From Rhodocyclaceae bacterium (GTDB taxonomy: Bacteria; Pseudomonadota; Gammaproteobacteria; Burkholderiales; Rhodocyclaceae): a stretch of 57,714 nucleotides of DNA. Location: positions 1 to 57,714 of the forward strand of contig JACDZI010000011.1 in assembly GCA_013426785.1 (NCBI GenBank), written 5' to 3'. The position numbers and the translations under genes were made by a program. Positions 2,929-56,070 of this stretch are shown here, piece by piece. Each line of letters starts with the position of its first letter. Within the stretch, counting starts at the first letter, position 1. The notes under the pieces are model-generated. The model was not told the DNA's origin, searched no databases, and saw only the letters and a list, made by a program, of their open reading frames with translations.

Positions 2929-3939
2929 TTACAGTCCTTCCAGCAGGTTGTATTTGCGGATGTTGCGGTCGGCCAGCGCCTGCAGCTTCGCGATCACCTG
3001 TACATCCGGTTGCTTGCCGAACAGGTGGGCATAGCGTTTTTGCGGTCGCAGATAGTCTTCCACGGGCAGCTTCTGCCGTATCGCCAGCGCCGACTTTTGC
3101 TCGCCGTATTCTGCCGAGAACACCGGGAACAGGCCGGTTTCCTTGGCGAGTCGGGCGATCTTGATGGTCTCGCTCGATGCCGTGCCCCAGCCGAGCGGGC
3201 AGGGCACGAGGATATGGATATAGCGGGCGCCGCGCAGTTCCATGGCGCGGCTCACCTTCGCTTCGAGGTCGCGCAAGTCGGCGACCGTGGCGGTGGCCAC
3301 GTAGGGAATCTCGTGCGCCATGGCGATGGCGGGTACGAACTTGCCTTGGCCGAAGGCGTTGCCCGGTTCGCTGCCCACGGCCATGGTGGTGGCGGTGCGC
3401 GCCGCCGGAGGCGTGGCGCTAGAGCGTTGCACCCCCGTGTTCATGTAGCCGCCGTTGTCGTAGCAGATGTACAGCACGTCGTCGTTGCGCTCGAACATGC
3501 CGGACAGGCAGCCGAAGCCGATGTCGGTGGTGCCGCCGTCGCCGCCCTGCGCGACCACGCGGATGGCGGGATTGCGTTCGCCCTTCTTCTGCTTCACCTT
3601 CAGCGCGGCGGCGATGCCGGTGGCGACCGCCGCAGTGTTGCCGAACAGCGAATGCACCCAGGGAATCTGCCAGGAGGTCTCGGGGTAGGGCGTCGAGAAC
3701 ACTTCCAGGCAGCCGGTGGCATTGGCGCAGATTAGTTGGCCCTGGGTGGCCTCCATGGCGGCGTCAATGGCGTAGCGTGCGCCGAGCGCCTCGCCGCAGC
3801 CCTGACAGGCACGATGGCCGGAGTTGATCGAGTTGTAGCGCTTGTCGCTCGCCTGCACACTGCGCTCCTCGGGGGCGAGCAGGCGATTGCCGACGGTGAA
3901 GGTGCCGGTTTGATAGAACTTGATGGGTTGGAAGCTCAT
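2929..3939 (-). CDS. porB: pyruvate:ferredoxin oxidoreductase, beta subunit (TPP-binding)
   Basis: A 336-residue TPP-binding subunit. It shows the N-terminal cluster-ligand motif CQGCGEALG, the ANATGCLE/YPETSW stretch typical of pyruvate synthase beta chains, and the TPP motif GGDGGTTDIGFG followed by an acidic YDNGGYMNTG segment. These features favour pyruvate over 2-oxoglutarate as substrate, an inference from family likeness. The start used is ATG 3939, spaced 6 nt from AGGAGG; an overlapping GTG at 3942 is too close to that site. A minus-strand copy of the dispersed 24-bp element (3075-3098) is read in frame as KSALAIR near the C terminus, between the core fold and the PVEDYL motif. Confidence 0.88.
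   Translation of the reverse strand: MSFQPIKFYQTGTFTVGNRLLAPEERSVQASDKRYNSINSGHRACQGCGEALGARYAIDAAMEATQGQLICANATGCLEVFSTPYPETSWQIPWVHSLFGNTAAVATGIAAALKVKQKKGERNPAIRVVAQGGDGGTTDIGFGCLSGMFERNDDVLYICYDNGGYMNTGVQRSSATPPAARTATTMAVGSEPGNAFGQGKFVPAIAMAHEIPYVATATVADLRDLEAKVSRAMELRGARYIHILVPCPLGWGTASSETIKIARLAKETGLFPVFSAEYGEQKSALAIRQKLPVEDYLRPQKRYAHLFGKQPDVQVIAKLQALADRNIRKYNLLEGL
3075..3098 (-). repeat. 24-bp dispersed element, copy 1 (inside porB)
   Basis: Matches the element (AAAA plus core GTCGGCGCTGGCGGGACGGC) at 22 of 24 positions, with GATAC in place of GGGAC. It is read in frame in the sense direction of porB as KSALAIR. Confidence 0.75.
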
Positions 3940-3949
3940 CACCGTCCTC

Positions 3950-5203
3950 CTAGTAATTGCGCGCGGCGACGACGCCGGCGTCGCGCAGCAGGTTCTCGGC
4001 GATGGGCCCGGAGCGGCGCACCTGCTTCTCGCGTTCGAGCTGTTTGTTCACCGCCTTCCAGTCGAGGTCGAGGAAGGTGTTGAGTTCCAGTTCCCCGGCA
4101 CAGGCTTTCTCGAACAGCGCGGTCAGCGATTTCACCGTGATGGCGCGGCCGCCGAGTCCGGCGATCACCGTATGGCCCTGCAGCCCCATGCCCGTACAGG
4201 CGAGGCGCACGTCAGTGGCGACGATGCCGCCGCCGCCCACGGCGAGGCTCTTCTCCAGCACCACGAAGCGCTGGCAATCCTTCAGCGCGGCCGCGACGGC
4301 AGCGTAGGGGAAGGGGCGGAAGCTGGTGATGCCGAGCACGCCGATCTTGTGCCCTTGTTCGCGCATCGCATCGACGGTGTCTTTGATCGTGCCCAGTACC
4401 GAGCCCATGGCGATGATGATGGTTTCCGCATCCTCGGTGCGGTAGCTGCGGATCAGCCCACCCGAATCGCGACCGAACACGGCCTGGAATTCCTCGGCCA
4501 GTTGCGGGATGCGTTCCAGCGCCTGCATCTGCTTGGCGTGGGCGAGGTAGCGCACTTCCATGAAGGCCTCGGGGCCGACCATCGCGCCGATGGAGACCGG
4601 CTCGGCGGGGTCGAGCACCTGGCGCGGCTCGTAGGGCGGCAGGTACTGGTCGACCTGCTGCTGAGTCGGCATGTCCACCCGCTCGTAGGCGTGGGTGAGG
4701 ATGAAACCGTCCATGCACACCATGATCGGCAGCGAGAGTTCCTCGGCCAGCTTGAACGCCTGGATGTGCAGGTCGAGCGCTTCCTGGTTGGTTTCGGCAA
4801 ACAGTTGCAGCCAGCCGGAGTCGCGCTGCGACAATGAGTCGGAGTGGTCATTCCAGATGTTGATCGGCGCACCGATGGCGCGGTTGGCCACGGTCATCAC
4901 GATGGGTAGGCCGAGGCCGGAGGCGTTGTACACCGCCTCGACCATGTAGAGCAGGCCCTGCGAGGCAGTCGCGGTATAGCTGCGCGCCCCGGCGGCCGAG
5001 GCACCGATGGCGACCGACATGGCAGCGAATTCCGATTCGACGTTGATGTACTCGCAGTCGCCCAGGGTGGCGTCCTTGACCATTTCGCCGAGAGCCTCGA
5101 CAATGTGCGTCTGCGGCGAGATCGGATAGGCGCAGATCACTTCCGGCCGGCACAGGGCGATGGCCTCGGCGACGGCGCGGCTTCCTTCCATCTGTTTAAG
5201 CAT
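3950..5203 (-). CDS. porA: pyruvate:ferredoxin oxidoreductase, alpha subunit
   Basis: A 417-residue alpha chain with the PFOR N-terminal domain (GSRAVAEAIALCRPEVICAYPISPQ), an ESEFAAMS/GASAAGARSYTATASQG segment, and a C-terminal transketolase-type domain with the VLEKSLAVGGGG motif. In the family it forms the active site together with the TPP-bearing beta chain. The start is ATG 5203, preceded by GGAGGG; the reading frame stays open further upstream, but that extension is Pro-rich and overlaps porC. The gene overlaps the end of porC by 8 bp and is followed by porB after 10 bp, indicating a translationally coupled operon. Confidence 0.9.
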   Translation of the reverse strand: MLKQMEGSRAVAEAIALCRPEVICAYPISPQTHIVEALGEMVKDATLGDCEYINVESEFAAMSVAIGASAAGARSYTATASQGLLYMVEAVYNASGLGLPIVMTVANRAIGAPINIWNDHSDSLSQRDSGWLQLFAETNQEALDLHIQAFKLAEELSLPIMVCMDGFILTHAYERVDMPTQQQVDQYLPPYEPRQVLDPAEPVSIGAMVGPEAFMEVRYLAHAKQMQALERIPQLAEEFQAVFGRDSGGLIRSYRTEDAETIIIAMGSVLGTIKDTVDAMREQGHKIGVLGITSFRPFPYAAVAAALKDCQRFVVLEKSLAVGGGGIVATDVRLACTGMGLQGHTVIAGLGGRAITVKSLTALFEKACAGELELNTFLDLDWKAVNKQLEREKQVRRSGPIAENLLRDAGVVAARNY

Positions 5204-5871: not shown

Positions 5872-5895
5872 AAAAGTCGGCGCTGGCGGGACGGC
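5872..5895 (+). repeat. 24-bp dispersed element, copy 2 (intergenic)
   Basis: Exact copy of AAAA plus GTCGGCGCTGGCGGGACGGC, just inside the left direct repeat of the island. From here to 6046 I see no gene or other clear feature. Confidence 0.85.
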
Positions 5896-6046: not shown

Positions 6047-6667
6047 GTTCGTTCGATATCAGGTACTCACTACACCGAGGGCGCAGACGGAGTGCCTTTC
6101 ATCCGGGTGCAGAATCTCTCCACTACTGGGAAGTTGAATCTTGAAGACTGTAAGCGCATAACCCGCAGCACACACGAGGGGCTTCTCGGTCGGAGCAAGT
6201 TATCTGGTGGGGAATTGCTGGTGAAAATTACCGGTGTTGGGCGGATGGCCGTAGCCTCAGTCGTCCCGGACCACTTTGAAGCCAACATAAACCAGCACAT
6301 CGTTGCGATACGCACAGGCGATAAGAAGATAAGCGAGACGCTCGCAGCATGGCTAAATCTCGACTCTGCGGAACGCCTTGCTTCGCGGCGCGCAACTGGC
6401 GGCACTCGCCCCGCCTTGGACTATCCAGCTCTCCTTTCCATCCCGGTTGTTTTCGATGAGAGTTTGCCAAAGCGAATTACTGATGCAGTCACCCGGTTTC
6501 AGGGGCTTCTGTATAAATCAAAGGACCTTCTGCTAAGAATTGACGATGTCCTCCTCAGCGAACTTGGCATTAAGCGTAAGTCGTCCCCTAAAAAGTCGGC
6601 GCTGGCGGGACGGCAACAGTTGAGGATTTCAAGCCAAGGAGCCAAAGTCGTAGCAGGTTCTATATAG
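6047..6667 (+). pseudogene. hsdS: type I restriction specificity subunit, 5'-truncated remnant
   Basis: The open frame from 6047 (no ATG; GTG at 6092) begins inside a target-recognition domain. GVPFIRVQNL and GELLVKITG followed by ANINQHIVAIR are hallmarks of HsdS. LDYPALLSIPV and a helical C-terminal stretch (LLRIDDVLLSELG) match the end of one half-subunit. About 205 residues remain, roughly half of a normal HsdS, so the N-terminal part is missing. The last natural residues are followed by an exact copy of the 24-bp element (6591-6614), read as KSALAGR, and a short unrelated tail. No hsdM or hsdR is adjacent. A different decayed type I locus lies at the right end of the window. Confidence 0.7.
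6591..6614 (+). repeat. 24-bp dispersed element, copy 3 (3' end of hsdS remnant)
   Basis: Exact copy, read in frame as KSALAGR just after the conserved part of the hsdS remnant. Confidence 0.85.
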
Positions 6668-7906: not shown

Positions 7907-7930
7907 GCCGTCCCGCCAGTGCCGACTTTT
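7907..7930 (-). repeat. 24-bp dispersed element, copy 4
   Basis: 23 of 24 match on the minus strand, 5 bp after the ATPase stop codon and just inside the right direct repeat. It is inverted relative to copy 2 at the other island boundary. Confidence 0.85.
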
Positions 7931-10765: not shown

Positions 10766-12127
10766 ATGGGCGCGACGATTGAAGTGAAAGTTCCCGACAT
10801 TGGCGATTTCAAGGGCATTCCGGTCATCGAGATTCATATCAAGCCGGGCGATACGGTCAAGGCCGAGGATTCGCTGATCACGCTCGAATCCGACAAGGCG
10901 ACGATGGACGTGCCAAGCCCTGCTGCCGGAACGGTGCGGGAAGTCAAGGTGGCGCTTGGCGACAAGGTTTCCGAAGGCAGTCTGGTGCTGCTGCTCGATA
11001 CCGGTGCTGAAAAAGTCGGCGCTGGCGAGACGGCTGCTGCTGCGCCGGTTGCAGCCCCGGCGCCAGCCGCTGCAACTCCCGTCGCACAATCAGTTACGAC
11101 CGTTGCCGAAGGCGAGGTGTGCGAACTGCGTCCGACCGAGGCCGAACCGACCACGGCTCCGGCGCAGATCAGCATGCCCTCGCCGGCCGAAACGGTCATG
11201 GCCATGGACGGCGCCAAGGCGCATGCCTCGCCTTCGGTGCGCCGCTTCGCCCGCGAGTTGGGCGTCGATGTCGCGAAGGTGAATGGCAGCGGGCCGAAGG
11301 GCCGCATTACGGAGCAGGACGTGCAGGGCTATGTCAAGGCGGCGCTGACTGCGTCGCCCGCTGCCGTCTCGCCAGCGCCGACTTTTTCGGGTGGCCTGGA
11401 GTTGTTGCCCTGGCCCAAGGTCGACTTCGCCAAGTTCGGCCCCATCGAGGTCAAGCCGCTGTCGCGCATCAAGAAGATCAGCGGCCCGAACCTCGCGCGC
11501 AACTGGGTGATGATTCCGGCGGTGACCTATCACGAGGAAGCCGACATCACCGACCTCGAAGCGCTGCGCGTTAGCCTCAACAAGGAGAACGAGAAGGCCG
11601 GCATCAAGCTCACCATGCTGGCTTTCATGATCAAGGCAGTGGTCGCCGCATTGAAGAAGTATCCCGACCTCAATACCTCGCTGGATGGAGACACTCAGAT
11701 CTTCAAGAACTACTGGCACATTGGCTTCGCCGCCGATACGCCGAACGGCCTGATGGTGCCGGTGCTGAAGAGTGCCGACCAGAAGGGCGTGATCGAGATC
11801 GCACAGGAAACCTCCGAACTGGCCAGGAAGGCGCGCGACGGTAAGCTGCTGGCGGGCGACATGCAGGGGGCGACCTTCACCATTTCCAGCGTCGGCGGCA
11901 TCGGCGGCACAGCTTTTTCGCCCATCGTCAATGCGCCGGAAGTGGCGATCCTCGGCGTCAGCAAGTCGAGCCTGAAACCGGTGTGGGATGGTCAGGCTTT
12001 CGCGCCGCGCCTGATCGTGCCGCTGTCCCTTTCCGCCGATCACCGCGTCATCGATGGTGCGCTGGCGACCCGTTTTAATGCCTACCTCGCCCAGTTGCTG
12101 GGCGATTTCCGCAGGGTGATGCTATGA
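10766..12127 (+). CDS. aceF: dihydrolipoamide acetyltransferase, E2 of pyruvate dehydrogenase
   Basis: A 453-residue E2 with one N-terminal lipoyl domain (ESDKATMD; the Lys is lipoylated), a peripheral-subunit-binding domain (ASPSVRRFARELGVD, GPKGRITEQDV) and the catalytic acetyltransferase domain ending in the SADHRVIDG active-site motif. Two copies of the 24-bp element are read in frame exactly in the flexible linkers. One on the sense strand follows the lipoyl domain (11011-11034, KVGAGETA); an inverted one follows the binding domain (11363-11386, VSPAPTF). Both carry the same GAGAC variant, so the mRNA could pair them. The start is ATG 10766; a GTG at 10760 overlaps the aceE stop. Its end overlaps lpd by 4 bp. 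Confidence 0.96.
   Translation: MGATIEVKVPDIGDFKGIPVIEIHIKPGDTVKAEDSLITLESDKATMDVPSPAAGTVREVKVALGDKVSEGSLVLLLDTGAEKVGAGETAAAAPVAAPAPAAATPVAQSVTTVAEGEVCELRPTEAEPTTAPAQISMPSPAETVMAMDGAKAHASPSVRRFARELGVDVAKVNGSGPKGRITEQDVQGYVKAALTASPAAVSPAPTFSGGLELLPWPKVDFAKFGPIEVKPLSRIKKISGPNLARNWVMIPAVTYHEEADITDLEALRVSLNKENEKAGIKLTMLAFMIKAVVAALKKYPDLNTSLDGDTQIFKNYWHIGFAADTPNGLMVPVLKSADQKGVIEIAQETSELARKARDGKLLAGDMQGATFTISSVGGIGGTAFSPIVNAPEVAILGVSKSSLKPVWDGQAFAPRLIVPLSLSADHRVIDGALATRFNAYLAQLLGDFRRVML
11011..11034 (+). repeat. 24-bp dispersed element, copy 5 (aceF, first linker)
   Basis: 23 of 24 match (GAGAC variant), read as KVGAGETA directly after the lipoyl domain. Confidence 0.82.
11363..11386 (-). repeat. 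24-bp dispersed element, copy 6 (aceF, second linker)
   Basis: Perfect inverted complement of copy 5 (same GAGAC variant), read antisense as VSPAPTF in the linker before the catalytic domain. Confidence 0.82.
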
Positions 12128-13542: not shown

Positions 13543-13566
13543 AAAAGTCGGCGCTGGCGGGACGGC
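13543..13566 (+). repeat. 24-bp dispersed element, copy 7 (directly after lpd stop)
   Basis: Exact copy starting on the base after the lpd stop codon (TGA at 13540-13542). Confidence 0.87.
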
Positions 13567-22150: not shown

Positions 22151-22994
22151 GGCGGGCATGGAGGAAGAATTCACGGTTGCCGTCGCTGCCGGTAATCGGG
22201 CTGTCGAACCAGCCGAGGACGGTGAGATGGTGTTCGGTGCAGCAGGCGAGGAGTTTGTCGCGTACTGCCGGGTACAGGAAAGCATCGGTAACGATGCCGC
22301 CCTTGCCGATGTGCTCCGGGTCGACTTCGAACTGTGGCTTGACCAGCAGCAGCAGGTCGCCGAGCTTCGTCAGCAACGGCGGCAGTTGCGGGATGATCAG
22401 CGTGAGTGAAATGAAGCTCACGTCGGCGACAATCAGGTCGAACTGCCGCGCATTTTGCCGTATTGCCAGCGCCGACTTTTTCAAATCACGCGCATTGATG
22501 CCTTCGTGAGGCTCGACGCGCGGGTCGGCGGCGATGGCCGGGTGCAACTGGCCGTGGCCAACATCGATACCGACGACCTTCGCTGCCCCATGCTGCAGCA
22601 GGCAGTCGGTGACCCCCCCCGTGCTTTGACCGATATCGAGGCAGTCGCAGCCGCGCGGATCAATGCCAGCATTTCGAAGCGCGCCGGCCAGCTTGAGACC
22701 ACCGCGGGAGACGTATTCGGTGTCCGGCGCGGGGGCTACCGCTAGTGCAGCATCGTCAGGTAACAAATGCGCTGGCTTGAGCATAGTCTCACCGGCCAGG
22801 CTGACGCGCCCGGCCTCGATCAGCCGCTGCGCTGCGGTGCGTGAGGGCGCAAGCCCCTGTTGCACCAGCAGCGCATCGAGCCGCACGCCATGGGCGTGCG
22901 ATGGCGTTTTCGCGCTGAAGACCTGCGCCGCAGCGCGCACGGCCACCTTGGACTTGGGCCGTGCGGTGCGGGCATGAAACGAGTTCATGCTCAT
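22137..22994 (-). CDS. tlyA: TlyA family RNA methyltransferase (S4 plus FtsJ-like domains)
   Basis: A 285-residue protein. Residues about 37-95 form an S4 RNA-binding domain (VRLDALLVQQGLAPSRTAAQ). A Rossmann methyltransferase follows, with DIGQSTGGVTDCLLQ (SAM site), DVGHGQL, IVADVSFISL and LLVKPQFEV. Family members methylate 2'-O of rRNA cytidines (in mycobacteria) and are often called hemolysins. A sense-strand copy of the 24-bp element (22457-22480) is read in frame as KSALAIR between the NARDL and FDLIVADVSF motifs, where the family usually has a short variable loop. It is placed between ahcY and metF, so methylation demand and SAH recycling share an operon. Confidence 0.88.
   Translation of the reverse strand: MSMNSFHARTARPKSKVAVRAAAQVFSAKTPSHAHGVRLDALLVQQGLAPSRTAAQRLIEAGRVSLAGETMLKPAHLLPDDAALAVAPAPDTEYVSRGGLKLAGALRNAGIDPRGCDCLDIGQSTGGVTDCLLQHGAAKVVGIDVGHGQLHPAIAADPRVEPHEGINARDLKKSALAIRQNARQFDLIVADVSFISLTLIIPQLPPLLTKLGDLLLLVKPQFEVDPEHIGKGGIVTDAFLYPAVRDKLLACCTEHHLTVLGWFDSPITGSDGNREFFLHARHEQD
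22457..22480 (-). repeat. 24-bp dispersed element, copy 8 (inside tlyA)
   Basis: 21 of 24 match (AATAC variant of GGGAC), read in the sense direction of tlyA as KSALAIR, almost the same peptide as in porB. Confidence 0.72.
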
Positions 22995-23015: not shown

Positions 23016-24407
<1,392 letters not shown>

Positions 24408-24431
24408 GGTAAGTCTCCATTCACGTTAAAT

Positions 24432-31247: not shown

Positions 31248-32179
31248 GCCGGCTGATGCTGCTCCTGATGTGGTTGCTGCACGGCTTGCCGCAGCCCGCA
31301 CTGGCGACCTGCGGCCGGCTGCTCGGCCGGCTGTTCATGCGCTTCGGCCGGCGCCGGCGCCATATCGTCGAGACCAACCTCGGCTTGTGCTTTCCTGATC
31401 TGACGCCGGCCGAAAAGTCGGCGCTGGCGAGACGGCACTTCGAAGCGTTCGGGCGCAGTTTTCTCGAGCGCGGCATCCTGTGGTGGTCAGCGCCGGAGCG
31501 CATCCGCCAGATCGTCACGCTCACGGGCATGGAACACCTGGCGGCGCTGGATGGCCGGCCGGTGATTCTGATGGCGCCGCATTTCGTTGGCCTCGACATG
31601 GGCTGGACACGGCTCACGCTGGAACGCGATATGGTGAGCATGTACGCCAACCAGGCCAGCCCGGGCTTCGATGCCGCCTTGTATCGTGGGCGGTTGCGGT
31701 TCGGCGCGTCCGAACTGCTGTCCAGGGAAGCCGGCGCCCGCAAAGCCGTCAAGGCGATGAAAGCGGGCAAACCCTTCTATTACCTGCCCGACCTCGATCA
31801 TGGCCGGCGGGATGCCGTTTTCGTGCCGTTCTTCGGCATTCCCGCGGCGACGGTCACCGGCCTGCCGCGTCTCGCGCGTCTGGCCGGGGCCACGGTGCTA
31901 CCGGTCGTCAGCCGCATGACGGCGACGGGATACGTCGTCGAAATCGGCCCGCCCTGGGCCGATTATCCGGGAGCCGACATCGAGGCGGATACGCGGCGGA
32001 TGAATGCCTTCATTGAGATGGCCATCCTCAAGATTCCGGAACAATATTTCTGGGTGCATCGCCGGTTCAAGACACCCCCTCCCGGCGGGAAACGCCCCTA
32101 CCTCATCCCCACTTTCCAGTTCCCCCCCTGGACACGTCGTCGCCGTGCGGCGAAACGCGCCGAGCGTTACCACCGGTAA
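31244..32179 (+). CDS. lipid A biosynthesis acyltransferase (LpxL/HtrB family), second of pair
   Basis: A 311-residue paralogue of the preceding protein, with catalytic motif APHFVGLD (H-x4-D), [36 protein letters not shown] and a basic C terminus. A copy of the 24-bp element (31413-31436) is read in sense as KSALARR near residue 60, before the catalytic motif, in a segment where the family has a variable helix. The pair presumably adds the two secondary acyl chains. Conserved neighbours in betaproteobacteria are metK, dapF and xerC, as here. Confidence 0.9.
31413..31436 (+). repeat. 24-bp dispersed element, copy 11 (inside second lpxL)
   Basis: 23 of 24 match (GAGAC variant as in aceF), read in frame as KSALARR. 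Confidence 0.8.
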
Positions 32180-32222: not shown

Positions 32223-32246
32223 AAAAGTCGGCGCTGGCGGGACGGC
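32223..32246 (+). repeat. 24-bp dispersed element, copy 12 (dapF upstream region)
   Basis: Exact copy, 13 bp before the dapF ATG, between the second lpxL and dapF. Confidence 0.87.
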
Positions 32247-35354: not shown

Positions 35355-38132
35355 ATGACCAAGAAACCCGCCGCTCCCGCTGCCCAAGCCGACATCCTCA
35401 GCTACCGCCATCCCGACCGGCGCAAGAACAATCCCGAGGTCGGCATGGTCACCCCGGCCACCGACCCGGATGAGGGCAAGACCGTTTGGGCGCACGACCC
35501 GCATCTTGACCCGACGTTGAGCTGGACCGGCAAGGCCGAGCGCACCAGCTTCGCGGTCGATACCGTCAGCCTGCATGTGCATGAGCGCATCGACCCGGCC
35601 AGCATCCTTTCCGCTGTGCGGCAAAAAGTCGGCGCTGGCAGGACGGCGAAAACCACCAAGGCCGCCCAGCAAAAAGCCATGCAGCCCGGCCTGTTCGACG
35701 CGCCCTTCGAGAGTCTGCCGCTCAGAGACGCCATCGACTTCTACAAGCACGACAAGGGCTGGAGCAATCGTTTAGTTGCCGGCGATTCGCTGCTGGTGAT
35801 GAACTCGCTGTTGCAGAAGGAAGGCATGGCCGGGCAGGTGCAGACCATCTACCTCGACCCGCCCTACGGCATCAAATACGGCTCCAACTTCCAGCCCTTC
35901 GTGAACAAGCGCGACGTGAAGGACCGGAAAGACGAGGACCTGACGCAAGAGCCGGAAATGATCAAGGCCTTTCGCGACACTTGGGAGCTGGGGATTCACT
36001 CCTACCTCACCTACCTGCGCGATCGGCTGCTGCTGGCGAAGGAGTTGCTGTCTGAATCCGGTAGCGTGTTCGTGCAGATTTCGGATGAGAACGTGCACCA
36101 TGTGCGGGAGGTTTGTGGCGAAGTCTTTGGCCCTGAAAACCACGTTGCGACTATCGCATACAAGACTGCGGTGAGCATGAGCGGGCAACTTCTAGATCAG
36201 AACTTCGATTTCGTGGTTTGGGTTGCAAAGAACAAGAACAAACTCAAATTCCGCCAACTGTTTATTCCTACAACCATTGGTGAGGAAGGGGCCTCGCGGT
36301 ATGCATGGCTACAGTCCCGGGAGGTAATGCGACAGCGACCTATGACCGCAGATGAGCGCGAGAAGCCAGAACGAATCAGCCCCGAATGGCGAGCGTTTCG
36401 CGATCAAGGTCTAACTTCTCGCTCGGGATCAGAAACTACGGTCTTTCCGTTTGAGTACCATGGAAAGAAGTTTTCCCCAGCGAGTGGTGGATGGCGCACA
36501 AGTGTGGTTGGGCTCAGTCGCGTATCGAAAGCAGACCGCCTCATTAGTACTGCCCATCGTCTAAATTTCAAGAAGTACTACGACGATTTTTCTGCCGTGG
36601 CGTTGGCTGGCTTATGGGCAGATACGGGGGGTGGTATTACCAGTCGAGCAGATCCAAAAGTTTATGCAGTTCAGACTAGCACAACGGTAATCGAACGCTG
36701 CCTCCTGATGACCACCGACCCCGGCGATCTGGTGCTTGATCCTACCTGCGGTTCTGGCACCACGGCCTATGTGGCGGAGAAGTGGGGCCGGCGCTGGATC
36801 ACCTGCGATACCTCGCGGGTGGCGGTGACGCTGGCGAAGCAGCGGCTGATGACCGCCAGCTACGACTACTTCGAGTTGCGCTATCCGCATGAAGGGCTGC
36901 GCGGCGGCTTCATCTGGAAAACGGTGCCGCACGTCACGCTCAAGTCCATCGCCAACAACCCGGACATCGACGCCATCTACGCGCGCCTGCATCCGGCCAT
37001 TGAAACCGCATTGGCCGAACTCAACAAGGCGCTGAAAGCCGGTGCGAAGGAATGGGAAGTGCCGTTCGACTTTCCGGCGGGCGCGGATGAAAAAGCCCGC
37101 CCGGCCTTCGCGGCTTTCCATGCGGCGCGGCAGGCGATGCAGAAGGCGATGGACCGCTCCATCGCCGACCACGCCGACCAGGAAACGCTCTACGACCAGC
37201 CTGCCAAGTCGAAAAACAAGCTGCGCATCACCGGGCCGTTTTCGGTCGAGGCGGTGCCGTTTCCCACCGTGCAGGCGCTGGACGATGAAAACTCAGAAAG
37301 TCGGCGCTGGCAGGACGGCACTTTCAGCGCCGACGCCAGCATTGCCCGCTCCGGCGAATCTTCCCGCCAGCACCAGTGGCGCGACGAACTCTTGAAAACC
37401 GGCATTCGCGGCAAGGGCGGGCAAATCCTGAAATTCGCCGCACTGGAAACCCAGCCCGGCACCAAATACCTGCACGCCACCGGCCACACCGAGGATGGCC
37501 AGCGCGTCGTCGTGCATTTCGGCCCCGAACACGCAGCGCTGGAACAGCGCGCCGTGACCAATGCGCTGGAGGAAGCCGGCAACCTGTTCCCGCTGCCGAA
37601 GATGATCGTCTTCTGCGCTTTTGCTTTCGATCCCGAGGCCGCCAAGGACATCGACCACCTGAAGGGCATCACGGCGCTGAAAGCGCAGATGAACACCGAC
37701 CTGCTGACCGAAGACCTGAAGAAGGCTCGCAGCACCAACCAGAGTTTCTGGCTGATGGGCCAGCCGGACGTGGCGGTGAGGAAGCGCAAGGACGGACTCT
37801 ACGAAGTCGAGGTCAACGGCTTCGACTATTTCGACACCGCCAAGGGCGAACTGGTCTCCGGCGGCAAGGGCCGCATCGCCCTATGGTCACTCGATACCGA
37901 CTACGACGAGCGCTCGCTGTTCCCGCATCAGGTGTTCTTCCCGCTCGCCGGCAAGGGCGAAGGCTGGGAAAAACTGAAGAAGGACATCCGCGCCGAACTC
38001 GACGAGGACGCCCTGGAAGCCTTCCACGGCACCGTGTCGCTACCCTTCGCGGCCGGGGATAATAAGAAGGTGGCGGTGAAGATCGTGGACGACCGGGGGA
38101 TCGAGTCGTTGCGGATTATTGACTTGGATTGA
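35355..38132 (+). CDS. type III-like DNA methyltransferase (Mod), site-specific
   Basis: A 925-residue DNA methyltransferase of the beta class: catalytic IYLDPPYGIKYGSNF near residue 170 precedes the SAM motif LDPTCGSGTTAYVAEKWG near residue 465. The segment between them should hold the target recognition domain and is visibly lower in GC than both flanks (about 42-50% in two 60-bp lines against 62% downstream), suggesting domain exchange. The C-terminal 400 residues extend beyond the usual Mod length. Two copies of the 24-bp element are in frame: 35624-35647 (KVGAGRTA) and 37297-37320 (ESRRWQDG, a different frame of the element). The start is ATG 35355; an ATG 15 bp earlier overlaps ccdB. 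Confidence 0.88.
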   Translation: MTKKPAAPAAQADILSYRHPDRRKNNPEVGMVTPATDPDEGKTVWAHDPHLDPTLSWTGKAERTSFAVDTVSLHVHERIDPASILSAVRQKVGAGRTAKTTKAAQQKAMQPGLFDAPFESLPLRDAIDFYKHDKGWSNRLVAGDSLLVMNSLLQKEGMAGQVQTIYLDPPYGIKYGSNFQPFVNKRDVKDRKDEDLTQEPEMIKAFRDTWELGIHSYLTYLRDRLLLAKELLSESGSVFVQISDENVHHVREVCGEVFGPENHVATIAYKTAVSMSGQLLDQNFDFVVWVAKNKNKLKFRQLFIPTTIGEEGASRYAWLQSREVMRQRPMTADEREKPERISPEWRAFRDQGLTSRSGSETTVFPFEYHGKKFSPASGGWRTSVVGLSRVSKADRLISTAHRLNFKKYYDDFSAVALAGLWADTGGGITSRADPKVYAVQTSTTVIERCLLMTTDPGDLVLDPTCGSGTTAYVAEKWGRRWITCDTSRVAVTLAKQRLMTASYDYFELRYPHEGLRGGFIWKTVPHVTLKSIANNPDIDAIYARLHPAIETALAELNKALKAGAKEWEVPFDFPAGADEKARPAFAAFHAARQAMQKAMDRSIADHADQETLYDQPAKSKNKLRITGPFSVEAVPFPTVQALDDENSESRRWQDGTFSADASIARSGESSRQHQWRDELLKTGIRGKGGQILKFAALETQPGTKYLHATGHTEDGQRVVVHFGPEHAALEQRAVTNALEEAGNLFPLPKMIVFCAFAFDPEAAKDIDHLKGITALKAQMNTDLLTEDLKKARSTNQSFWLMGQPDVAVRKRKDGLYEVEVNGFDYFDTAKGELVSGGKGRIALWSLDTDYDERSLFPHQVFFPLAGKGEGWEKLKKDIRAELDEDALEAFHGTVSLPFAAGDNKKVAVKIVDDRGIESLRIIDLD
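35624..35647 (+). repeat. 24-bp dispersed element, copy 13 (mod, N-terminal part)
   Basis: 23 of 24 match (AGGAC variant), read as KVGAGRTA before the catalytic domain. Confidence 0.82.
37297..37320 (+). repeat. 24-bp dispersed element, copy 14 (mod, C-terminal part)
   Basis: 22 of 24 match, AGGAC variant, read in the third sense frame as ESRRWQDG after the methyltransferase core. Confidence 0.8.
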
Positions 38133-39893: not shown

Positions 39894-42680
39894 ATGACGC
39901 GGAAATCCCTCATCCTCAATTCCCCCTACGCCGCGCCATCCAAACACTGGCAACCCGGCGACGGAGGCGCTTTGGTCGAAACCGCCGGCCGCCGCCCGGC
40001 CAGCTACGAGATTTTCGACATCCGCAACAACACGCGGCGCAGCGAGCCGCTGGAGCGTGTCAAAGAGATTCGCGGCCGGGTGGATGCCTGGCGTGCGGCG
40101 GACTATCCGGGCGCGACTGCCGTTTCGCGCCGGCTGCTGGAACATTGGCGCGACGCCACGGCGCGGGTGCATCCGTTCTACTATTGCCAGATCGAGGCGA
40201 TCGAGACGCTGATCTGGTGGGTGGAGGGCGCGCAGGAGTTTCGTCAGGGCGTATTTTTGCCCGGCGATGGCGGTCCGTGGGAGCGCGTGTGCAGCAAGAT
40301 GGCGACGGGCACCGGCAAGACGCTGGTGATGGGCATGATCGTCGTCTGGCAGGTGGCGAACGCGCTGGCCTATCCGAAACGCAAGGAGTTTTCGCGGGCG
40401 ATCTTTGTTGTCGCACCGGGGCTGACGGTGAAGGAACGCTTGCGCGTGCTCTATCCCGGCGAGACGGACAATATCTACGACGAGTTCGCGCTGTGCCCCT
40501 CGGAGGCGCTGCGCCAACAGGTGAATCGTGCCGAAATCCTGGTCGATAACTGGCACGCGCTGATGCCGCTCACGCCACCGGAACGTTCGGTGGTCAGGAA
40601 AGGCAAGGAAAGCGAACAGGCTTTCACGCGCCGCGTACTGGGCAAGTTGGCGACGCATAACAATCTGGTGGTCATCAACGACGAGGCGCATCACGCCTGG
40701 CGGGTGCCCGCCGACGTGAAACTGTCGAAGAAGCAGGCGGCCGATTCCGGCATTGACCTGGACGAGGCGACGCGCTGGATCGAGGGGCTGGACCGCATTC
40801 ACAGGACGCGCGGGATTTTGCGCTGCTTTGATCTTTCCGCGACGCCCTTCGCGCCCACCGGCAAGGCGAATGCGGACGAAGGCTTGTTTGCGTGGATCGT
40901 TTCCGACTTCGGTCTCAACGATGCCATCGAGGCCGGGCTGGTGAAGACGCCGCGCGTGGTGGTGCGCGACGATGCGCTGCCCGACACGAAAACCCTGCGG
41001 CCGAAGTTGTATCACCTCTACCGCGATGATGAGGTGGCCGACGATCTGAACCGGCGCGGGGCGCAGGCGCATGAACCCTTGCCGCAGTTGGTGCAGGATG
41101 CCTACACGCTGCTGGGGGCCGACTGGCGTGCGGCGCTGGACGACTGGCAGGCCGCGGGCCACACCTCGCCGCCGGTGCTGCTGACGGTGTGCAACCGCAC
41201 CGAAACGGCGGCGCGCATCGAGCACTACTTCAAGCAAGGCAATGCCCATTGGCCGGAACTGCACGCGCCGGAAAGAACCCTGCGCGTCGATTCGCGCGTG
41301 CTGGACAAGGCGGAGCTTGGGGAAACCGCCGGGACGGACAAGGATTACGAGGCGGATTTGCGCGCCATCGTTGCGACGGCCGGGATTCCCCGGGAGAAGA
41401 AAGATCGCTTGGCCGGGCTGACCAAGGAAGAACTGCTGCGCGAGATCGTCGATAGCGTCGGCAAGCGCGGCCGCGCCGGGCAGGACGTGCAAAACGTGAT
41501 TTCGGTGGCGATGCTCTCCGAAGGCTGGGACGCGAAGAACGTGACCCACATCATGGGCTTGCGCGCCTTCACTTCGCAGCTTTTGTGCGAGCAGGTGATC
41601 GGTCGCGGCCTGCGCCGGGTGTCGCACGATTTGGACGAGAACGGCCTGTTCAAGCCGGAATTCGTCAACATTTTTGGCGTGCCGCTGTCGATCTTCCAGG
41701 AAGTCGGCGCTGGCGGGACGGCACCCAATCCGCCGCGACCCAACAAGCAGGTCGAGGCTTTGCCGGAGCGCAATGCCTTGGAACTACGTTGGCCCAATGT
41801 GCTGCGTATCGACACGGTGATGCGACCGACGCTGGTCGTGGACTGGTCACGGGTGCCATTGCTGACGCTCGATCCGGCCCAGACGCCCATCGTGGCCGAG
41901 ATTGCGCCGGCACTGGGCGGCGCGGCCGACATGAGCAAGGTGACGCGTATCGATCTGGAGTTGTTGCCGGAATCGTTCCGCTTGCAGCGGCTGGTGTTTC
42001 GCGCGGCGCAAAAGGCGTTCGAGGCAGCAGCGGGAAAGTTCAGCGGTCAGCGCGATTTCCTCGCCCTGCAACTGATCCGGCTGGTCGAGCAATTCCTTGC
42101 CGCCGACAAGCTGGACATCCCCAGCCTGTTCCATCGGGACGAGGGGCGAAAACGCATCCTGATTGCACTGAATCTCGATGCCATCGTGCAGCACTTGATG
42201 CGCCATGTCGAACAGCAGAACCGCGAACGGCTGGAGCCGGTGTTCGACGAAGAACAGCCGATTGGTTCGACCCGCGCCATGCGAACGTGGTACACGACCA
42301 AGACCTGCCACGCCACGCAGAAATCGCAGATCAGCTACATGCTCGCGGATTCGGCTTGGGAGCAGCACGCGGCCAATCTGCTGGAGATGGACAATCGGGT
42401 GCTGGCTTATGCCAAGAACGATCACCTTGGTTTCCAGATTGTCTATCTGTGGAACGGCGTGCGGCGGCGTTACCTGCCGGACTTCCTGATTCGCCTGACT
42501 AACGGCAAGACGCTGGTACTGGAGATCAAGGGCGAGGACTCCGAGCAGAATCGCGCCAAGCGTGCGGCGCTCGATTCCTGGGTACTGGCGGTGAATGCCA
42601 AGGGGGGCTTCGGCCTCTGGTGCTGGGACGTCGCTTTCGAGGCGGCGAAAATGCGCGACATCCTCGACCGTCATGGCTGA
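39894..42680 (+). CDS. type III-like restriction endonuclease subunit (Res): DEAD-type helicase plus PD-(D/E)XK nuclease
   Basis: A 928-residue protein. Helicase motifs: I MATGTGKT near residue 140, II INDEAHHAW, III DLSATPF, VI QVIGRGLRR. The C-terminal nuclease reads YLPDFLIRLTNG followed by LVLEIKGED (PD...ExK). It is the translocase/nuclease partner of the mod gene 1.8 kb upstream; the ATPase-DUF4276 pair is wedged between them. A copy of the 24-bp element (41699-41722) is read as EVGAGGTA between the helicase core and the C-terminal region. The last 8 bp overlap rlmI. Confidence 0.88.
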   Translation: MTRKSLILNSPYAAPSKHWQPGDGGALVETAGRRPASYEIFDIRNNTRRSEPLERVKEIRGRVDAWRAADYPGATAVSRRLLEHWRDATARVHPFYYCQIEAIETLIWWVEGAQEFRQGVFLPGDGGPWERVCSKMATGTGKTLVMGMIVVWQVANALAYPKRKEFSRAIFVVAPGLTVKERLRVLYPGETDNIYDEFALCPSEALRQQVNRAEILVDNWHALMPLTPPERSVVRKGKESEQAFTRRVLGKLATHNNLVVINDEAHHAWRVPADVKLSKKQAADSGIDLDEATRWIEGLDRIHRTRGILRCFDLSATPFAPTGKANADEGLFAWIVSDFGLNDAIEAGLVKTPRVVVRDDALPDTKTLRPKLYHLYRDDEVADDLNRRGAQAHEPLPQLVQDAYTLLGADWRAALDDWQAAGHTSPPVLLTVCNRTETAARIEHYFKQGNAHWPELHAPERTLRVDSRVLDKAELGETAGTDKDYEADLRAIVATAGIPREKKDRLAGLTKEELLREIVDSVGKRGRAGQDVQNVISVAMLSEGWDAKNVTHIMGLRAFTSQLLCEQVIGRGLRRVSHDLDENGLFKPEFVNIFGVPLSIFQEVGAGGTAPNPPRPNKQVEALPERNALELRWPNVLRIDTVMRPTLVVDWSRVPLLTLDPAQTPIVAEIAPALGGAADMSKVTRIDLELLPESFRLQRLVFRAAQKAFEAAAGKFSGQRDFLALQLIRLVEQFLAADKLDIPSLFHRDEGRKRILIALNLDAIVQHLMRHVEQQNRERLEPVFDEEQPIGSTRAMRTWYTTKTCHATQKSQISYMLADSAWEQHAANLLEMDNRVLAYAKNDHLGFQIVYLWNGVRRRYLPDFLIRLTNGKTLVLEIKGEDSEQNRAKRAALDSWVLAVNAKGGFGLWCWDVAFEAAKMRDILDRHG
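41699..41722 (+). repeat. 24-bp dispersed element, copy 15 (inside res)
   Basis: 22 of 24 match, read as EVGAGGTA directly after the last helicase motif block. Confidence 0.82.
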
Positions 42681-43878
42681 ACTGATCCTCCATCCCGGCA
42701 AGGAACGTTCGCTGTTCAAGCGGCATCCGTGGGTTTTCGATACCGCCGTGGCGCATCTGGCCGGACATGCCCGGCGCGGCGATACGGTGACGCTCTGCGC
42801 GGCTGACGGCCGGCCGCTGGCGAAAGCGGCTTTTTCGCCGCAGTCGAAGATTCGTGCCCGGGTGTGGACCTTCGATGTCGAAATGCCCATCGATCATGCC
42901 TTCTTCAAGCGTCGCGTGGCGCAGGCCGTCGCACGCCGCGCCGCGTTGCCGGAACTCCGGGGCCAGGATGGGCTGAGGCTGATCCATGCCGAATCCGACG
43001 GCCTGCCGGGCGTGATCGCAGACCAATATCACGATGAAATGAGCGGCGACACGGTGGTGGTGCAACTGACCAGTGCCGGGGCCGACAAGTGGCGCAGCGC
43101 GATTGTCGATGGCCTGGTCAAGGCCACTGGCTGCGCGCGCGTCTATGAGCGCTCCGATTCCGAGGTGCGCGGTCTGGAGGGGCTGGAACCCACGACGGGA
43201 TGGTTGCATGGCGAAGCGTCGGCCGGCGACATCGCCATCGGGGAGCACGGCGTGAAAATGGTGGTGGATATCGTCGCCGGCCACAAGACCGGCTTCTATC
43301 TCGACCAGCGCGAAAACAGGCAAATGAGCCGGCGCCTTGCCGAGAACGGGCGAGTATTGAATTGCTTTTGCTACACCGGGGGTTTTTCGCTGCAAGCCTT
43401 GGCCGGCGGTGCGGCCAGCGTGCTGTCGATCGACAGTTCGCAGCCGGCGCTGGACCGCGCGGCGGCGAATCTCGCGCTCAATCCGTCACTCGACGCCAAA
43501 CGTGCCGAGTGGCGCTGCGCCAACGTGTTCGACGAACTGCGCCAGTTGAAGGCGGCGGGGGAAACTTTCGACCTGATCGTGCTCGACCCGCCCAAGTTTG
43601 CGCCCTCGGCTGCGCATGCCGAGCGTGCCAGCCGCGCCTACAAGGACATCAATCTGCTGGGTTTCCGGCTGCTGGCGCCGGGCGGGCTGCTGATGACCTA
43701 CTCCTGCTCCGGCGGCATCGGCGTCGAACTGTTCCAGAAGATCGTCGCCGCTGCGGCCTGCGACAGCGGGCGGACCGCACGTATTGTCCGACGGTTGCAG
43801 GGTGCGGCCGACCACCCGGTCGATCTGGCTTTTCCCGAAGGCGAATATCTGAAAGGCTTGCTCGTTCAGGTCGATTGA
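42673..43878 (+). CDS. rlmI: 23S rRNA (cytosine-C5)-methyltransferase, RlmI family
   Basis: A 401-residue enzyme with an N-terminal PUA RNA-binding domain (ILHPGKERSLFKRHPWVF), a central EEHVD-like region and a Rossmann domain with NCFCYTGGFSLQALAGGA (SAM), VLDPPKFAPS and the TYSCSGG catalytic Cys. RlmI methylates C1962 of 23S rRNA. The ATG at 42673 fits the family start; it overlaps res by 8 bp, so a housekeeping gene is translationally coupled to the restriction operon. An element copy lies at its stop codon. Confidence 0.92.
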   Translation: MAELILHPGKERSLFKRHPWVFDTAVAHLAGHARRGDTVTLCAADGRPLAKAAFSPQSKIRARVWTFDVEMPIDHAFFKRRVAQAVARRAALPELRGQDGLRLIHAESDGLPGVIADQYHDEMSGDTVVVQLTSAGADKWRSAIVDGLVKATGCARVYERSDSEVRGLEGLEPTTGWLHGEASAGDIAIGEHGVKMVVDIVAGHKTGFYLDQRENRQMSRRLAENGRVLNCFCYTGGFSLQALAGGAASVLSIDSSQPALDRAAANLALNPSLDAKRAEWRCANVFDELRQLKAAGETFDLIVLDPPKFAPSAAHAERASRAYKDINLLGFRLLAPGGLLMTYSCSGGIGVELFQKIVAAAACDSGRTARIVRRLQGAADHPVDLAFPEGEYLKGLLVQVD

Positions 43879-43901
43879 AAAGTCGGCGCTGGCAGGACGG
43901 C
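43878..43901 (+). repeat. 24-bp dispersed element, copy 16 (at rlmI stop)
   Basis: 23 of 24 match (AGGAC variant). Its first A is the last base of the rlmI TGA. Confidence 0.85.
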
Positions 43902-44707: not shown

Positions 44708-44731
44708 GCCATCCCGCCAGCGCCGACTTAT
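44708..44731 (-). repeat. 24-bp dispersed element, copy 17 (at DUF3299 stop)
   Basis: 22 of 24 match; in the sense direction of the DUF3299 gene it begins at its TAA stop codon. Confidence 0.8.
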
Positions 44732-49087: not shown

Positions 49088-49384
49088 ATGCTCCGGCGTG
49101 CGGTAAGTCTTGCTGCCCTGTTGGCGCTGCTGCTCGGTACCCAATGGCTCTTGGCGATGCATGGCATCGACCATGTTTTCGAGGCGGCCGAGGCGGATGA
49201 CGAGGTCTGCGTCACTTGCCTGGCACTGGCTGGTTTACAGGGGGGCGGGTCACCCACTCTCGCTGCTGCTTTGCCGGTACTACCCGTTGCCGCTTTGAAG
49301 CTTGAACACGCCGTCCCGCCAGCGCCGACTTTTCCCCGCCCCCTCCCTTTCCAGAGTCGCGCCCCGCCCGTTCTGCCGAGTTGA
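49088..49384 (+). CDS. small exported protein, DUF2946-like
   Basis: A 98-residue protein with an N-terminal hydrophobic signal (AVSLAALLALLLGTQWLLA), then HGIDHVFEAAEADDEVCVTCLAL with a C-x2-C pair and two His, a plausible metal site. This arrangement resembles DUF2946-type proteins found near metal and cytochrome genes, but the match is weak. An exact, antisense 24-bp element (49310-49333) is read as AVPPAPTF in the last third, so the C terminus may consist partly of element-derived residues. Co-directional with zur and the porin-like gene. Confidence 0.65.
   Translation: MLRRAVSLAALLALLLGTQWLLAMHGIDHVFEAAEADDEVCVTCLALAGLQGGGSPTLAAALPVLPVAALKLEHAVPPAPTFPRPLPFQSRAPPVLPS
49310..49333 (-). 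repeat. 24-bp dispersed element, copy 18 (3' part of the small exported gene)
   Basis: Exact copy on the minus strand, read as AVPPAPTF. Confidence 0.87.
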
Positions 49385-51714: not shown

Positions 51715-52478
51715 ACATCGACATCGGCTTGCTCGCCGCGCCGCTGGCGGCCGGCCTGCTGGTGCTGGCCACGCATGTGCCGCTCGGTATGGAAGTCCTG
51801 AAGCGCGGCATCATCTTCATCGACCTCGCCATCGCGCAGGTGGCTGGCCTGGGGGTGATGGTCGCGCTGCTGATGGATTGGCAGGCGCCGCTCGCCGTGC
51901 AGTCAGCGGCTGCCGGTGCCGCGCTGGGTGGTGCGCTGTTGTTGCACTGGACCGAGCGCCGCTGGCCAGCGGTTCAAGAGGCACTGATTGGCCTGCTGTT
52001 CGTCACTGCCGCTGCGGCGGGCATCCTGTTGCTGGCCGGCAATCCGCATGGTGGTGAGCACTTGCAGGACTTGCTGGCCGGACAGATTCTCTGGGTCGGC
52101 TGGGCGCGGTTGCTGCCCGTGGCATTGCTGTACGCAACCATCCTGGCGCTGTGGTTCCTCGCCCGCGAGCGCCTCGGCCGCTTTGGCTTCTACCTACTGT
52201 TCGCGCTGATGGTGACCGCCTCCGTGCAACTGGTTGGTGTGCTGCTGGTGTTTGCCAGCCTGATCGCGCCGGCGGTAGCGGTAAGCGCTTTGCGGCATAG
52301 GCGGCTGGCTGCGGGGTACGGGATAGGTGCGCTCGCGTATATGGCCGGTCTGACGCTGTCGGCTGTCGCGGACCTGCCGGCTGGTGCGGCCATCGTCTGC
52401 AGTCTCGTCGGCATCAGCTTTATTGCACTGGCTGCATTCTCCCGCCGTCCTGCCAGCACCGACTTATTGCAGGCGTAG
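51711..52478 (+). CDS. znuB: zinc ABC transporter permease (ZnuB family)
   Basis: A 255-residue membrane protein of the ABC-3 family, with [19 protein letters not shown] near the N terminus and [21 protein letters not shown] near the C terminus, both family signatures. It forms the channel for the receptor ZnuA. The ATPase ZnuC is not encoded in this window. The last residues (RRPASTDLL) are read through a degenerate antisense element copy (52444-52467), so the natural C terminus may have been altered. hslV starts 29 bp later. Confidence 0.88.
52444..52467 (-). repeat. 24-bp dispersed element, copy 19 (3' end of znuB)
   Basis: 21 of 24 match, antisense, read as RRPASTDL over the final codons of znuB. 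Confidence 0.75.
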
Positions 52479-54682: not shown

Positions 54683-54706
54683 TCGACACCCCCAGGAACA
54701 CCCCAA

Positions 54707-55990
54707 ATGCTGACTGCGCTCGTCCTTGTTTTCGTCATTGCCTATGCGGCTATCGCACTTGAGCATCCGCTCAAGATCAACAAATCGGCTTCCGCTTTAG
54801 TCGGCGCGGGCTTGCTGTGGACCATCTACGCCCTATCAACCGGCGATTCCCACCTGGTGGGCGAGCAGTTGGGTGAATCGGTCATGGCGACGGCGCAGAT
54901 CGTCTTCTTCCTGATGGGGGCAATGACCATCGTCGAGGTCGTCGATGCCCACAACGGTTTTGAAGTCATTACCAAACGCATTCGTACCTCACAGTTGTCC
55001 TCACTGATGTGGCTGGTCGGTTTCGTCACCTTCTTCCTGAGTGCGATTCTGGACAACCTGACCACGACCATCGTGATGATTTCCCTGATGCGGAAACTGC
55101 TGGCCAAGCACGAGGATCGCCTGTTCTTCGCCGGCATCATCGTCATTGCCGCCAACTCCGGCGGCGCGTGGTCGCCGATCGGTGACGTGACTACCACCAT
55201 GCTCTGGATCGGTGGCCAGATCACCACCCTGGCCATCATCAAGGCGGTCTTTCTGCCAGCCATCGTCAGCATGGTGGTGCCCCTGGCCGTCACCGCCTAT
55301 GTCTTGCGTGGCCAGTTGGTCGACGCGCCCCCGGTGAAGGAAAGCGATCATGGTTTGCGTACCACCGAGTTTGAACGCAATCTGATGTTCTTCCTCGGGT
55401 TGGGCATACTGGTGGCGGTCCCGGCCTTCAAGACGATCACCCATTTGCCGCCTTTCATGGGCATCCTGTTCGGGCTGGGCATCCTCTGGCTGGTCGGTGA
55501 TCTGGTGCATCGCCACAAGGAAGACGAGAACAAGCAGCATCTGACGCTGGTGCATGCCCTCAGTCGCATCGACATGAGTTCCATCGTCTTCTTCATCGGC
55601 ATCCTGCTGGCCGTCGCCACGCTGGAACACACCCACATCCTGACATCGCTGGCCCAGTGGCTGGATCAGACTGTGGGCCGGCAGGATGTGATTGTGCTGA
55701 TCATCGGCATCGTCAGCGCCATAGTTGATAACGTGCCGCTGGTCGCCGCTTCAATGGGCATGTACAGCCTGGAGCAATTTCCGGCCGATCATTTCCTCTG
55801 GGAGTTCCTGGCCTACTGTGCCGGTACCGGCGGTTCGATCCTGATCATCGGCTCCGCCGCGGGGGTGGCGGCCATGGGCCTCGAGAAGATTCACTTCTTC
55901 TGGTACGTGAAGAAAATCAGCGGGCTGGCCCTGGTCGGCTACTTTGCCGGTGCCGGTACCTATTTGCTGCAGTACCAGATGCTCCACTGA
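54707..55990 (+). CDS. nhaD: NhaD-type Na+/H+ antiporter
   Basis: A 427-residue membrane protein with about 12 segments. NhaD-family motifs include FFLMGAMTIVEVVDAHNGF, LSAILDNLTTTIVMISLMRKLL, ANSGGAWSPIGDVTTTMLWI, GIVSAIVDNVPLVAASMGMYSL and GTGGSILIIGSAAGVAAMG. The two Asp-Asn (DN) pairs are likely cation-site residues. It exports Na+ (or Li+) in exchange for H+. The start is ATG 54707 behind a long structured leader with its own promoter; an in-frame upstream start at 54671 lies in the leader hairpin and was rejected. Confidence 0.93.
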   Translation: MLTALVLVFVIAYAAIALEHPLKINKSASALVGAGLLWTIYALSTGDSHLVGEQLGESVMATAQIVFFLMGAMTIVEVVDAHNGFEVITKRIRTSQLSSLMWLVGFVTFFLSAILDNLTTTIVMISLMRKLLAKHEDRLFFAGIIVIAANSGGAWSPIGDVTTTMLWIGGQITTLAIIKAVFLPAIVSMVVPLAVTAYVLRGQLVDAPPVKESDHGLRTTEFERNLMFFLGLGILVAVPAFKTITHLPPFMGILFGLGILWLVGDLVHRHKEDENKQHLTLVHALSRIDMSSIVFFIGILLAVATLEHTHILTSLAQWLDQTVGRQDVIVLIIGIVSAIVDNVPLVAASMGMYSLEQFPADHFLWEFLAYCAGTGGSILIIGSAAGVAAMGLEKIHFFWYVKKISGLALVGYFAGAGTYLLQYQMLH

Positions 55991-56057
55991 GCATGTTTCC
56001 CGCTCAGATTGGTCATCGGGTCGGAAACCGACATCGTCTTTCTACTGCGGAACATTC

Positions 56058-56070
56058 AAAAAGTCGGCGC
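56058..56070 (+). repeat. partial (13-bp) copy of the dispersed element
   Basis: Only the AAAAAGTCGGCGC half is present, 5 bp past the stop of the minus-strand peptidase gene; the second half is lost. Confidence 0.5.

Follow-up and report, generated by a model that had tools for sequence, protein, structure and literature searches.

What is the short word that recurs on both strands of a 57,714-nucleotide stretch from a Rhodocyclaceae bacterium (GenBank assembly GCA_013426785.1, contig JACDZI010000011.1, positions 1 to 57,714; hereafter the window)? An earlier note on this DNA had described it as a dispersed 24-bp element, AAAA followed by a 20-bp core, and had compared it both with in-frame mini-repeats such as Rickettsia palindromic elements (RPEs) and, for its density, with DNA-uptake sequences. 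We favour, with modest confidence, the reading that this motif serves a clade of Rhodocyclaceae as a DNA-uptake (self-recognition) signal, because its pattern resembles that of the uptake sequences of Neisseriaceae and Pasteurellaceae. Its high copy number on both strands, its placement in permissive spots, its conservation, its dialects and an origin of copies that looks linked to recombination all point to such a signal.

Alignment of the copies defined a motif of about 25 bp, AAAA-GTCGGCGCTGGCGGGACGGC-R, whose flanks carry no further signal. The 20-bp core, GTCGGCGCTGGCGGGACGGC, is preceded by A at positions -4 to -1, with a weak preference for A/G at -5, and the base that follows it is A or G, hardly ever C; the motif thus slightly exceeds the extent first proposed. 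A search of the window allowing 3 mismatches gave 19 core matches, of which 6 were exact, compared with a mean of 0.05 and a maximum of 1 in 100 shuffled sequences. The 19 copies originally counted are thus confirmed, as are a half copy and the five copies given as exact, in which both the core and the AAAA are perfect (Table 1); the sixth exact core, at 41703, is preceded by GGAA. A genome-wide count, proposed in the earlier note as a check, gave 638 matches at up to 2 mismatches in the 3.24 Mb of the same genome (336 forward and 302 reverse), compared with 0 and 0 for the reversed pattern. The density first estimated, about one copy per 3 kb, holds for the window and 20 other stretches of this genome (0.32 copies per kb when 3 mismatches are allowed) but drops to one per 5 kb genome-wide (up to 2 mismatches). 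Together with the window these 20 stretches, which were chosen for holding matches, form a 445-kb sample in which 59, 48, 20, 16 and 9 copies had 0, 1, 2, 3 and 4 mismatches, respectively. That the element is stop-free in all six frames is true but unremarkable, since 39% of random 24-mers from the sample are likewise stop-free.

We then looked at the distribution of the motif among genomes (G, L, C and g numbers are our handles for genomes, loci, contigs and genera). The family was judged by the named relatives of the aceE gene of the window, the closest of which are Rhodocyclaceae assemblies, the top of the list being nearly all metagenomic. Within the genus of the window, copy numbers range from 149 to 658 in 18 of the 19 genomes, among them G018, a single-contig assembly. 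The nineteenth, G010 (87% complete), has 0 copies and is the only such member of the genus among those searched; it has a comEC match and a pilin of the ComP_DUS family (see below), and could serve as a natural control in which the motif is missing or has been lost. Across the family, at least 90 copies were present in 37 of 297 genomes, belonging to 6 of 68 genera (11 of 12 sampled genomes in g1, 11 of 12 in g2, 1 of 1 in g9, 1 of 1 in g38, 4 of 4 in g46 and 9 of 9 in g64). The twelfth g2 genome has 21 copies, one of the two g23 genomes 26, and the remaining genomes at most 17, this core undercounting genomes that have a dialect of their own, such as G062 (8 copies). An order-level search of 399 genomes with a degenerate core gave at most 6 copies in each of the 386 genomes outside the family. 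Small groups of exact or near-exact copies were seen in a few motif-poor genomes, such as on contig C104 of G073 and on contigs of G384; these groups may be segments transferred from a motif-rich relative, or misbinned.

Other genera carry their own consensus of the motif. Eleven groups of stretches of 20 to 445 kb each were compared, several of which rest on 5 to 18 copies. The g45 dialect is AAAAGTCGACGCTGG (10 copies at up to 4 mismatches); in g9, T is found alongside C at GGtGCTGG (18 copies); g64 has mostly an A after GGCG; and in g2, a genus that is probably Sulfuritalea, the A-tract has shrunk to about GAG, with two free positions before ACGGCG (13 copies). Even within the window's genus, G002 carries GAAACTCGG and GGGGCGGC, its stretch holding 5 copies and its genome-wide list of matches many more. 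In unbiased counts of 12-mers the motif ranks top in G000, G062, G026, G055, G129 and G086; it is not top in G117, G163, G040, G002 and the Sulfuritalea loci, which either gave small samples or contain other repeats that outrank it. A repeat of another kind was seen in L198 (G000:C224), where an array resembling clustered regularly interspaced short palindromic repeats (CRISPR) starts at about 14819; it has 37 repeat copies containing GTCAGCAAAATGCCCTGAAAACAAAGGGATTGAGAC, about 70 bp apart where listed, and there is a lone partial copy at 7274.

The copies are islands of conservation in divergent spots. We compared orthologues of copies with at most 1 mismatch, excluding the G002 stretches and setting aside 82 of 286 pairs that were gapped in the element. 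In the 204 ungapped pairs, the core was 90.6% identical, compared with 60% at positions -10 to -5 and 72% over the 9 bp past the motif end, and with about 80% throughout at control sites. The orthologous core lay within 2 mismatches in 155 of the 204 pairs, where 9 to 21% would be expected from the divergence of the flanks; these counts are not independent, because pairs share ancestry. The motif is also enriched outside genes: according to a rough caller of open reading frames (ORFs), 79 of 143 copies lay fully in ORFs, 53 fully outside and 11 across an edge, compared with 86% of random 24-mers inside. Copies in ORFs are read unequally (KVGAGGT 26, AVPPAPTF 18, RPASADF 13, KSALAGR 11, PSRQRRL 6 and KSRRWRDG 5). 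Spacing was more even than chance, with a coefficient of variation (CV) of 0.75 compared with 0.93 in simulations (P 0.0015) and only 1 of 122 gaps below 300 bp where 12 were expected. For two further sets, the first of which covers the same two regions in different genomes, P values were 0.07 and 0.0055 when the CV was tested, and 0.02 and 0.52 when short gaps were, so that short gaps were scarce in two of the three sets; in the window alone even spacing was not significant (P 0.11), and the forward copies of G001 alone showed no such effect (CV 0.96 compared with 0.98). Uptake sequences are typically rare in recently acquired DNA. Here, three copies were found on 15 contigs selected for the absence of exact matches, a biased choice (10 scanned ORFs were mixed in content), and viral contigs holding an exact match had 36 extra copies in 493 kb. 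Altogether, copy number, dialects, enrichment outside ORFs, conservation and even spacing back the likeness to uptake sequences in density that had first been remarked upon.

Conserved islands and even spacing would also suit a genome-wide site for a chromosome-organising, regulatory or recombination protein, comparable to FtsK-orienting polar sequences (KOPS), Chi, parS or the sites of nucleoid proteins and kept by selection; the variants between genera could then track a coevolving protein. We regard this as unlikely, if worth serious attention. Indeed, orientation relative to origin and terminus, another check put forward at the outset, revealed no replichore polarity in the one genome analysed, G001, whose 100 copies on the forward strand gave a Rayleigh p of about 0.27. 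Moreover, the motif holds about 38 bits of information, a figure inflated because the copies were selected at up to 4 mismatches, where simple arithmetic shows that about 13 bits suffice to find 638 sites on both strands of 3.24 Mb. Finally, the same-genus G010, 87% complete, has no copy, and matches to this core are few or absent in the majority of related genera. A protein that recognises the motif, as the earlier note had envisaged, is likely under the uptake reading as well; the imperfect dyad from which the note had derived this idea is no more than a candidate feature for such recognition.

How copies arise was studied by comparing orthologues with and without the motif. A first pass, which included the low-complexity linker of the pyruvate dehydrogenase E2 gene (a name inferred from its position after aceE and from its relatives), gave 204 pairs: 119 with the motif, 4 with the motif reversed and 81 without. 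Among these 81, the length change was zero in 25 and +24 in 1, located in the E2 linker. In a stricter pass, which left this linker out and took for each copy the closest element-lacking orthologue of the genus with flanks at least 75% alike, a gain in the insertion range (15 to 33 bp) was seen in 0 of 24 copies compared with 8 of 569 control sites; 5 of the 24 fell between -33 and -15, and 2 at exactly 0. These 24 copies represent six distinct sites: the 104 copies examined make up 62 sites, 56 of which had no lacking orthologue meeting the thresholds. A crude test based on 9-mers showed part of the motif to persist in the "lacking" partner for 4 of the 75 pairs. Upstream of the gene that we take, from its sequence, to be dapF, the length difference ranges from -39 to +11; in a comparison outside this set, L175 and L173 are separated there by five substitutions without any gap, their flanks being 88% alike. 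Also outside the set, the site of the first window copy (3075) is ungapped in L009, which has the motif, and in L010, L011 and L017, which lack it and match the core at 15, 16 and 12 of 20 bases, respectively. At one and the same gene end, the motif of L176 (13413) is in the opposite orientation to that of L166 (13443) and L168 (7289), and in the E2 gene the copies fall in linkers and differ between relatives. Copies thus seem to arise via replacement of the local sequence at tolerant spots, sometimes with extra length, rather than as one fixed insert. Clean insertion of a fixed length is mostly rejected, with 0 of 24 copies (six sites) in the insertion range, and the clean 24-bp insertions that the earlier note had suggested looking for in orthologues are not the rule.

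These results bear on a mobile mini-element of the RPE, miniature inverted-repeat transposable element (MITE) or repetitive extragenic palindromic (REP) type, which an enzyme acting in trans would have inserted and which would since have decayed or been tidied by small indels. Such an element would have the fixed length, the many copies and the patchy presence across genera that we observed; the sites are rich in indels, the E2 linker provides the single +24 among 81 pairs, and at one of the six sites (L190, position 8156, and its orthologues) alleles that bear the motif exceed those that lack it by 12 bp in 19 pairs and by 27 to 43 bp in a further 14. Recounting the copies as six sites, together with this longer site, led us to raise the weight of insertion and to lower that of the uptake reading. 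We nevertheless consider a mobile element improbable. None of the 24 copies gained length in the insertion range against its closest lacking orthologue, lengths are equal at 23943 (six lacking orthologues) and at 3075 (three), and copies are more conserved than their flanks, without decay. No stable hairpin was found either, the 24-mer folding at -2.8 and -0.5 kcal/mol on the two strands (z 0.18 and 1.12). RPEs occur in frame within genes and combine a palindrome or hairpin with clean insertion and decay. The motif shares with these and other in-frame mini-repeats the in-frame copies, some of them in permissive linkers, but has no palindrome or hairpin and no regular clean insertion, and is conserved rather than decaying. 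The RPE-like mini-insertion first proposed is thus on the whole unsupported, within the limit that the 24 copies represent six sites, one of which has the longer alleles. REP elements are dispersed short high-copy repeats with hairpins, tied to REP-associated tyrosine transposases (RAYTs); the motif is likewise short, dispersed and in high copy but lacks the hairpin. A search of its own genome with PF01797, which we assume RAYTs to match, found no RAYT: the sole Y1 transposase match lies beside a TnpB-type gene, as an IS605-type pair.

Template-directed writing, in which a template derived from small RNA or single-stranded DNA would convert partly similar sites to the consensus, would account for copies that are nearly exact, with partial matches forming no clear graded series, and for local replacement with varied length change; it is very unlikely, as no template or writing enzyme was found (one transposase family only was searched) and allele replacement by transformation accounts for the same data. 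Chance, compositional bias or an assembly artefact, to which the high G+C content of the genome might lend itself, is refuted by the shuffles (0.05 expected compared with 19), the reversed control (0 compared with 638) and the recurrence of 149 to 658 copies in 18 of 19 genus genomes, single-contig G018 included.

If the motif is an uptake signal, DNA that carries it would be bound at the cell surface by a receptor, probably a component of the type IV pilus; such DNA would preferentially be taken up and recombined, alleles with the motif would therefore spread, and the motif would build up wherever selection on the host sequence permits. Known uptake sequences have a cognate pilin receptor (ComP, predicted ComN), and the presence of uptake machinery here is plausible. 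Indeed, comEC is present in the genome of the window and in 291 of 297 family genomes and, among 30 genomes, FimT was found in 29 and a fimT-linked pilin in 30, neither of which sorts motif-rich from motif-poor genomes. In the window's own genome this pilin matches the Pfam family ComP_DUS (PF16732) with 36.8 bits compared with a cut-off of 27.3, which is only a lead: the pilin family is present in 29 of the 30 genomes, its tree is unsorted by motif and its net charge is low, and it is thus at most a candidate for the receptor.

Rhodocyclaceae belong to the same GTDB order as Neisseriaceae. With the DNA uptake sequences (DUS) of the latter, 10- to 12-mers read by the ComP receptor, the motif shares hundreds or more of copies, permissive spots in conserved regions, a conservation above that of the flanks and clade-specific dialects. 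It is, however, twice as long, unrelated in overall sequence (the GCCGTC string and the inner CTG that they have in common may be coincidental) and nearly without inverted pairs; the density of DUS is also higher. The uptake signal sequences (USS) of Pasteurellaceae, with a 9-nt core and two AT-rich regions spanning up to 32 nt, resemble it in being long and composite, in having an A-tract, in their many copies and in coming in more than one type by clade, but it differs in its approximately 24 contiguous strongly conserved positions and G+C-rich core, and belongs to a different family and sequence. Even spacing is a feature ascribed to USS in the older literature, and uptake sequences paired as inverted repeats act as terminators. 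In the passages of the uptake-sequence literature that we drew on (PMC3630211, PMC4212676, PMC12616744), DUS and USS are described as often paired in this way (PMC12616744). A study of neisserial DUS (PMC2397512) gives a similar picture: the motif is conserved but sits where the core genome is more divergent, and many new copies, which differ too much from their orthologues to have come from point mutation, are attributed to recombination.

Several observations weigh against an uptake signal. The presence of comEC does not separate motif-rich from motif-poor genomes, a ComP_DUS-family pilin occurs in 29 of 30 genomes irrespective of how rich they are in the motif, the only genome without such a match, G062, bears its own motif dialect, and the pilin tree does not sort by motif. 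The word has 24 strongly conserved positions plus a purine, compared with about 9 to 13 nt for the cores of uptake signals, and only 1 inverted pair within 150 bp was found among 143 copies. A graded excess of partly matching sequences is given as a feature of uptake sequences in part of Bakkali 2007 (PMC1939737). Sequences with 4, 5 and 6 mismatches to the core numbered 9, 40 and 241, compared with 2.7, 21 and 133 for permuted cores, an excess of roughly two- to threefold, but those with 4 to 8 mismatches were no commoner than for genomic 20-mers of the same G+C; the excess depends on the control used, and a graded excess is thus not shown. Three window copies lie within a type III restriction operon, and such genes are often accessory. 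Element sites are rich in indels, length being conserved within 3 bp at 6 of 24 copies compared with 513 of 569 controls, and at the L190 site the motif-bearing alleles are the longer ones. Word length, rare inverted pairs, control-dependent partial matches, the restriction-operon copies and the longer site keep the binding-site, insertion and template explanations alive.

Table 1. Copies of the motif in the window, with core mismatches and context.
Feature	Position	Strand	Mismatches and context
motif copy	3075..3098	-	2 core mismatches; in frame in ORF 2929-3942, peptide KSALAIR
motif copy	5872..5895	+	exact 24 bp; between listed ORFs
motif copy	6591..6614	+	exact 24 bp; in frame in 191-aa ORF, KSALA
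motif copy	7907..7930	-	1 mismatch; between ORFs, upstream of aceE
motif copy	11011..11034	+	1 mismatch; linker of pyruvate dehydrogenase E2 gene, EKVGAGETA
motif copy	11363..11386	-	1 mismatch; second linker of pyruvate dehydrogenase E2 gene, AVSPAPTF
motif copy	13543..13566	+	exact 24 bp; directly past TGA stop
motif copy	22457..22480	-	3 mismatches; in frame in ORF 22137-22994, KSALAIR
motif copy	23943..23966	+	2 mismatches; equal length in six orthologues without motif
motif copy	27106..27129	+	1 mismatch; common to L169 and L170
motif copy	31413..31436	+	1 mismatch; in frame, KSALA; common (up to 4 differences) to 13 genus stretches
motif copy	32223..32246	+	exact 24 bp; just upstream of start of presumed dapF
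motif copy	35624..35647	+	1 mismatch; type III methyltransferase gene, read in frame as KVGAGRT
motif copy	37296..37319	+	1 mismatch; in frame in same type III methyltransferase gene, ESRRWQDG
motif copy	41699..41722	+	core exact, preceded by GGAA; type III restriction gene, read in frame as EVGAGGT
motif copy	43878..43901	+	1 mismatch; overlaps TGA stop
motif copy	44708..44731	-	1 mismatch; at tandem TAA stops
motif copy	49310..49333	-	exact 24 bp
motif copy	52444..52467	-	2 mismatches
half copy	56059..56070	+	A-tract and GTCGGCG; 6 mismatches over full core

Other features of the window were noted. Between 35340 and 42680, the type III restriction-modification genes flank an ATPase-like gene that matches HEC-01B of PADLOC (661 bits). 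A large SNF2 helicase ORF (25675-29061) has a weak SWIM finger match, and its best PADLOC match, DpdE (698 bits), may reflect the helicase domain only. An S-adenosylhomocysteine (SAH) riboswitch (RF01057, 56.7 bits; 24429-24510) lies just upstream of the minus-strand ORF 23016-24407, and an nhaA-I riboswitch (RF03057, 42.2 bits; 54551-54623) upstream of an ORF that starts at 54671.

Taking the evidence as a whole, we lean, on a nearly even balance, towards a third, independently evolved family of uptake signals, that of Rhodocyclaceae, with a putative receptor, dialects by genus and a word of 25 bp, about twice the length of any known continuous core. Our literature search, whose coverage left most subscription journals outside, returned no report of the 20-mer or of a Rhodocyclaceae uptake signal. 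If true, a third system would make it possible to test independently whether uptake signals arise by drive, safe sex or repair, how a pilus protein might read 25 bp and why receptors differ. The motif is also a possible marker of gene flow, and its clusters in genomes otherwise poor in it may point to DNA that originated in this clade.

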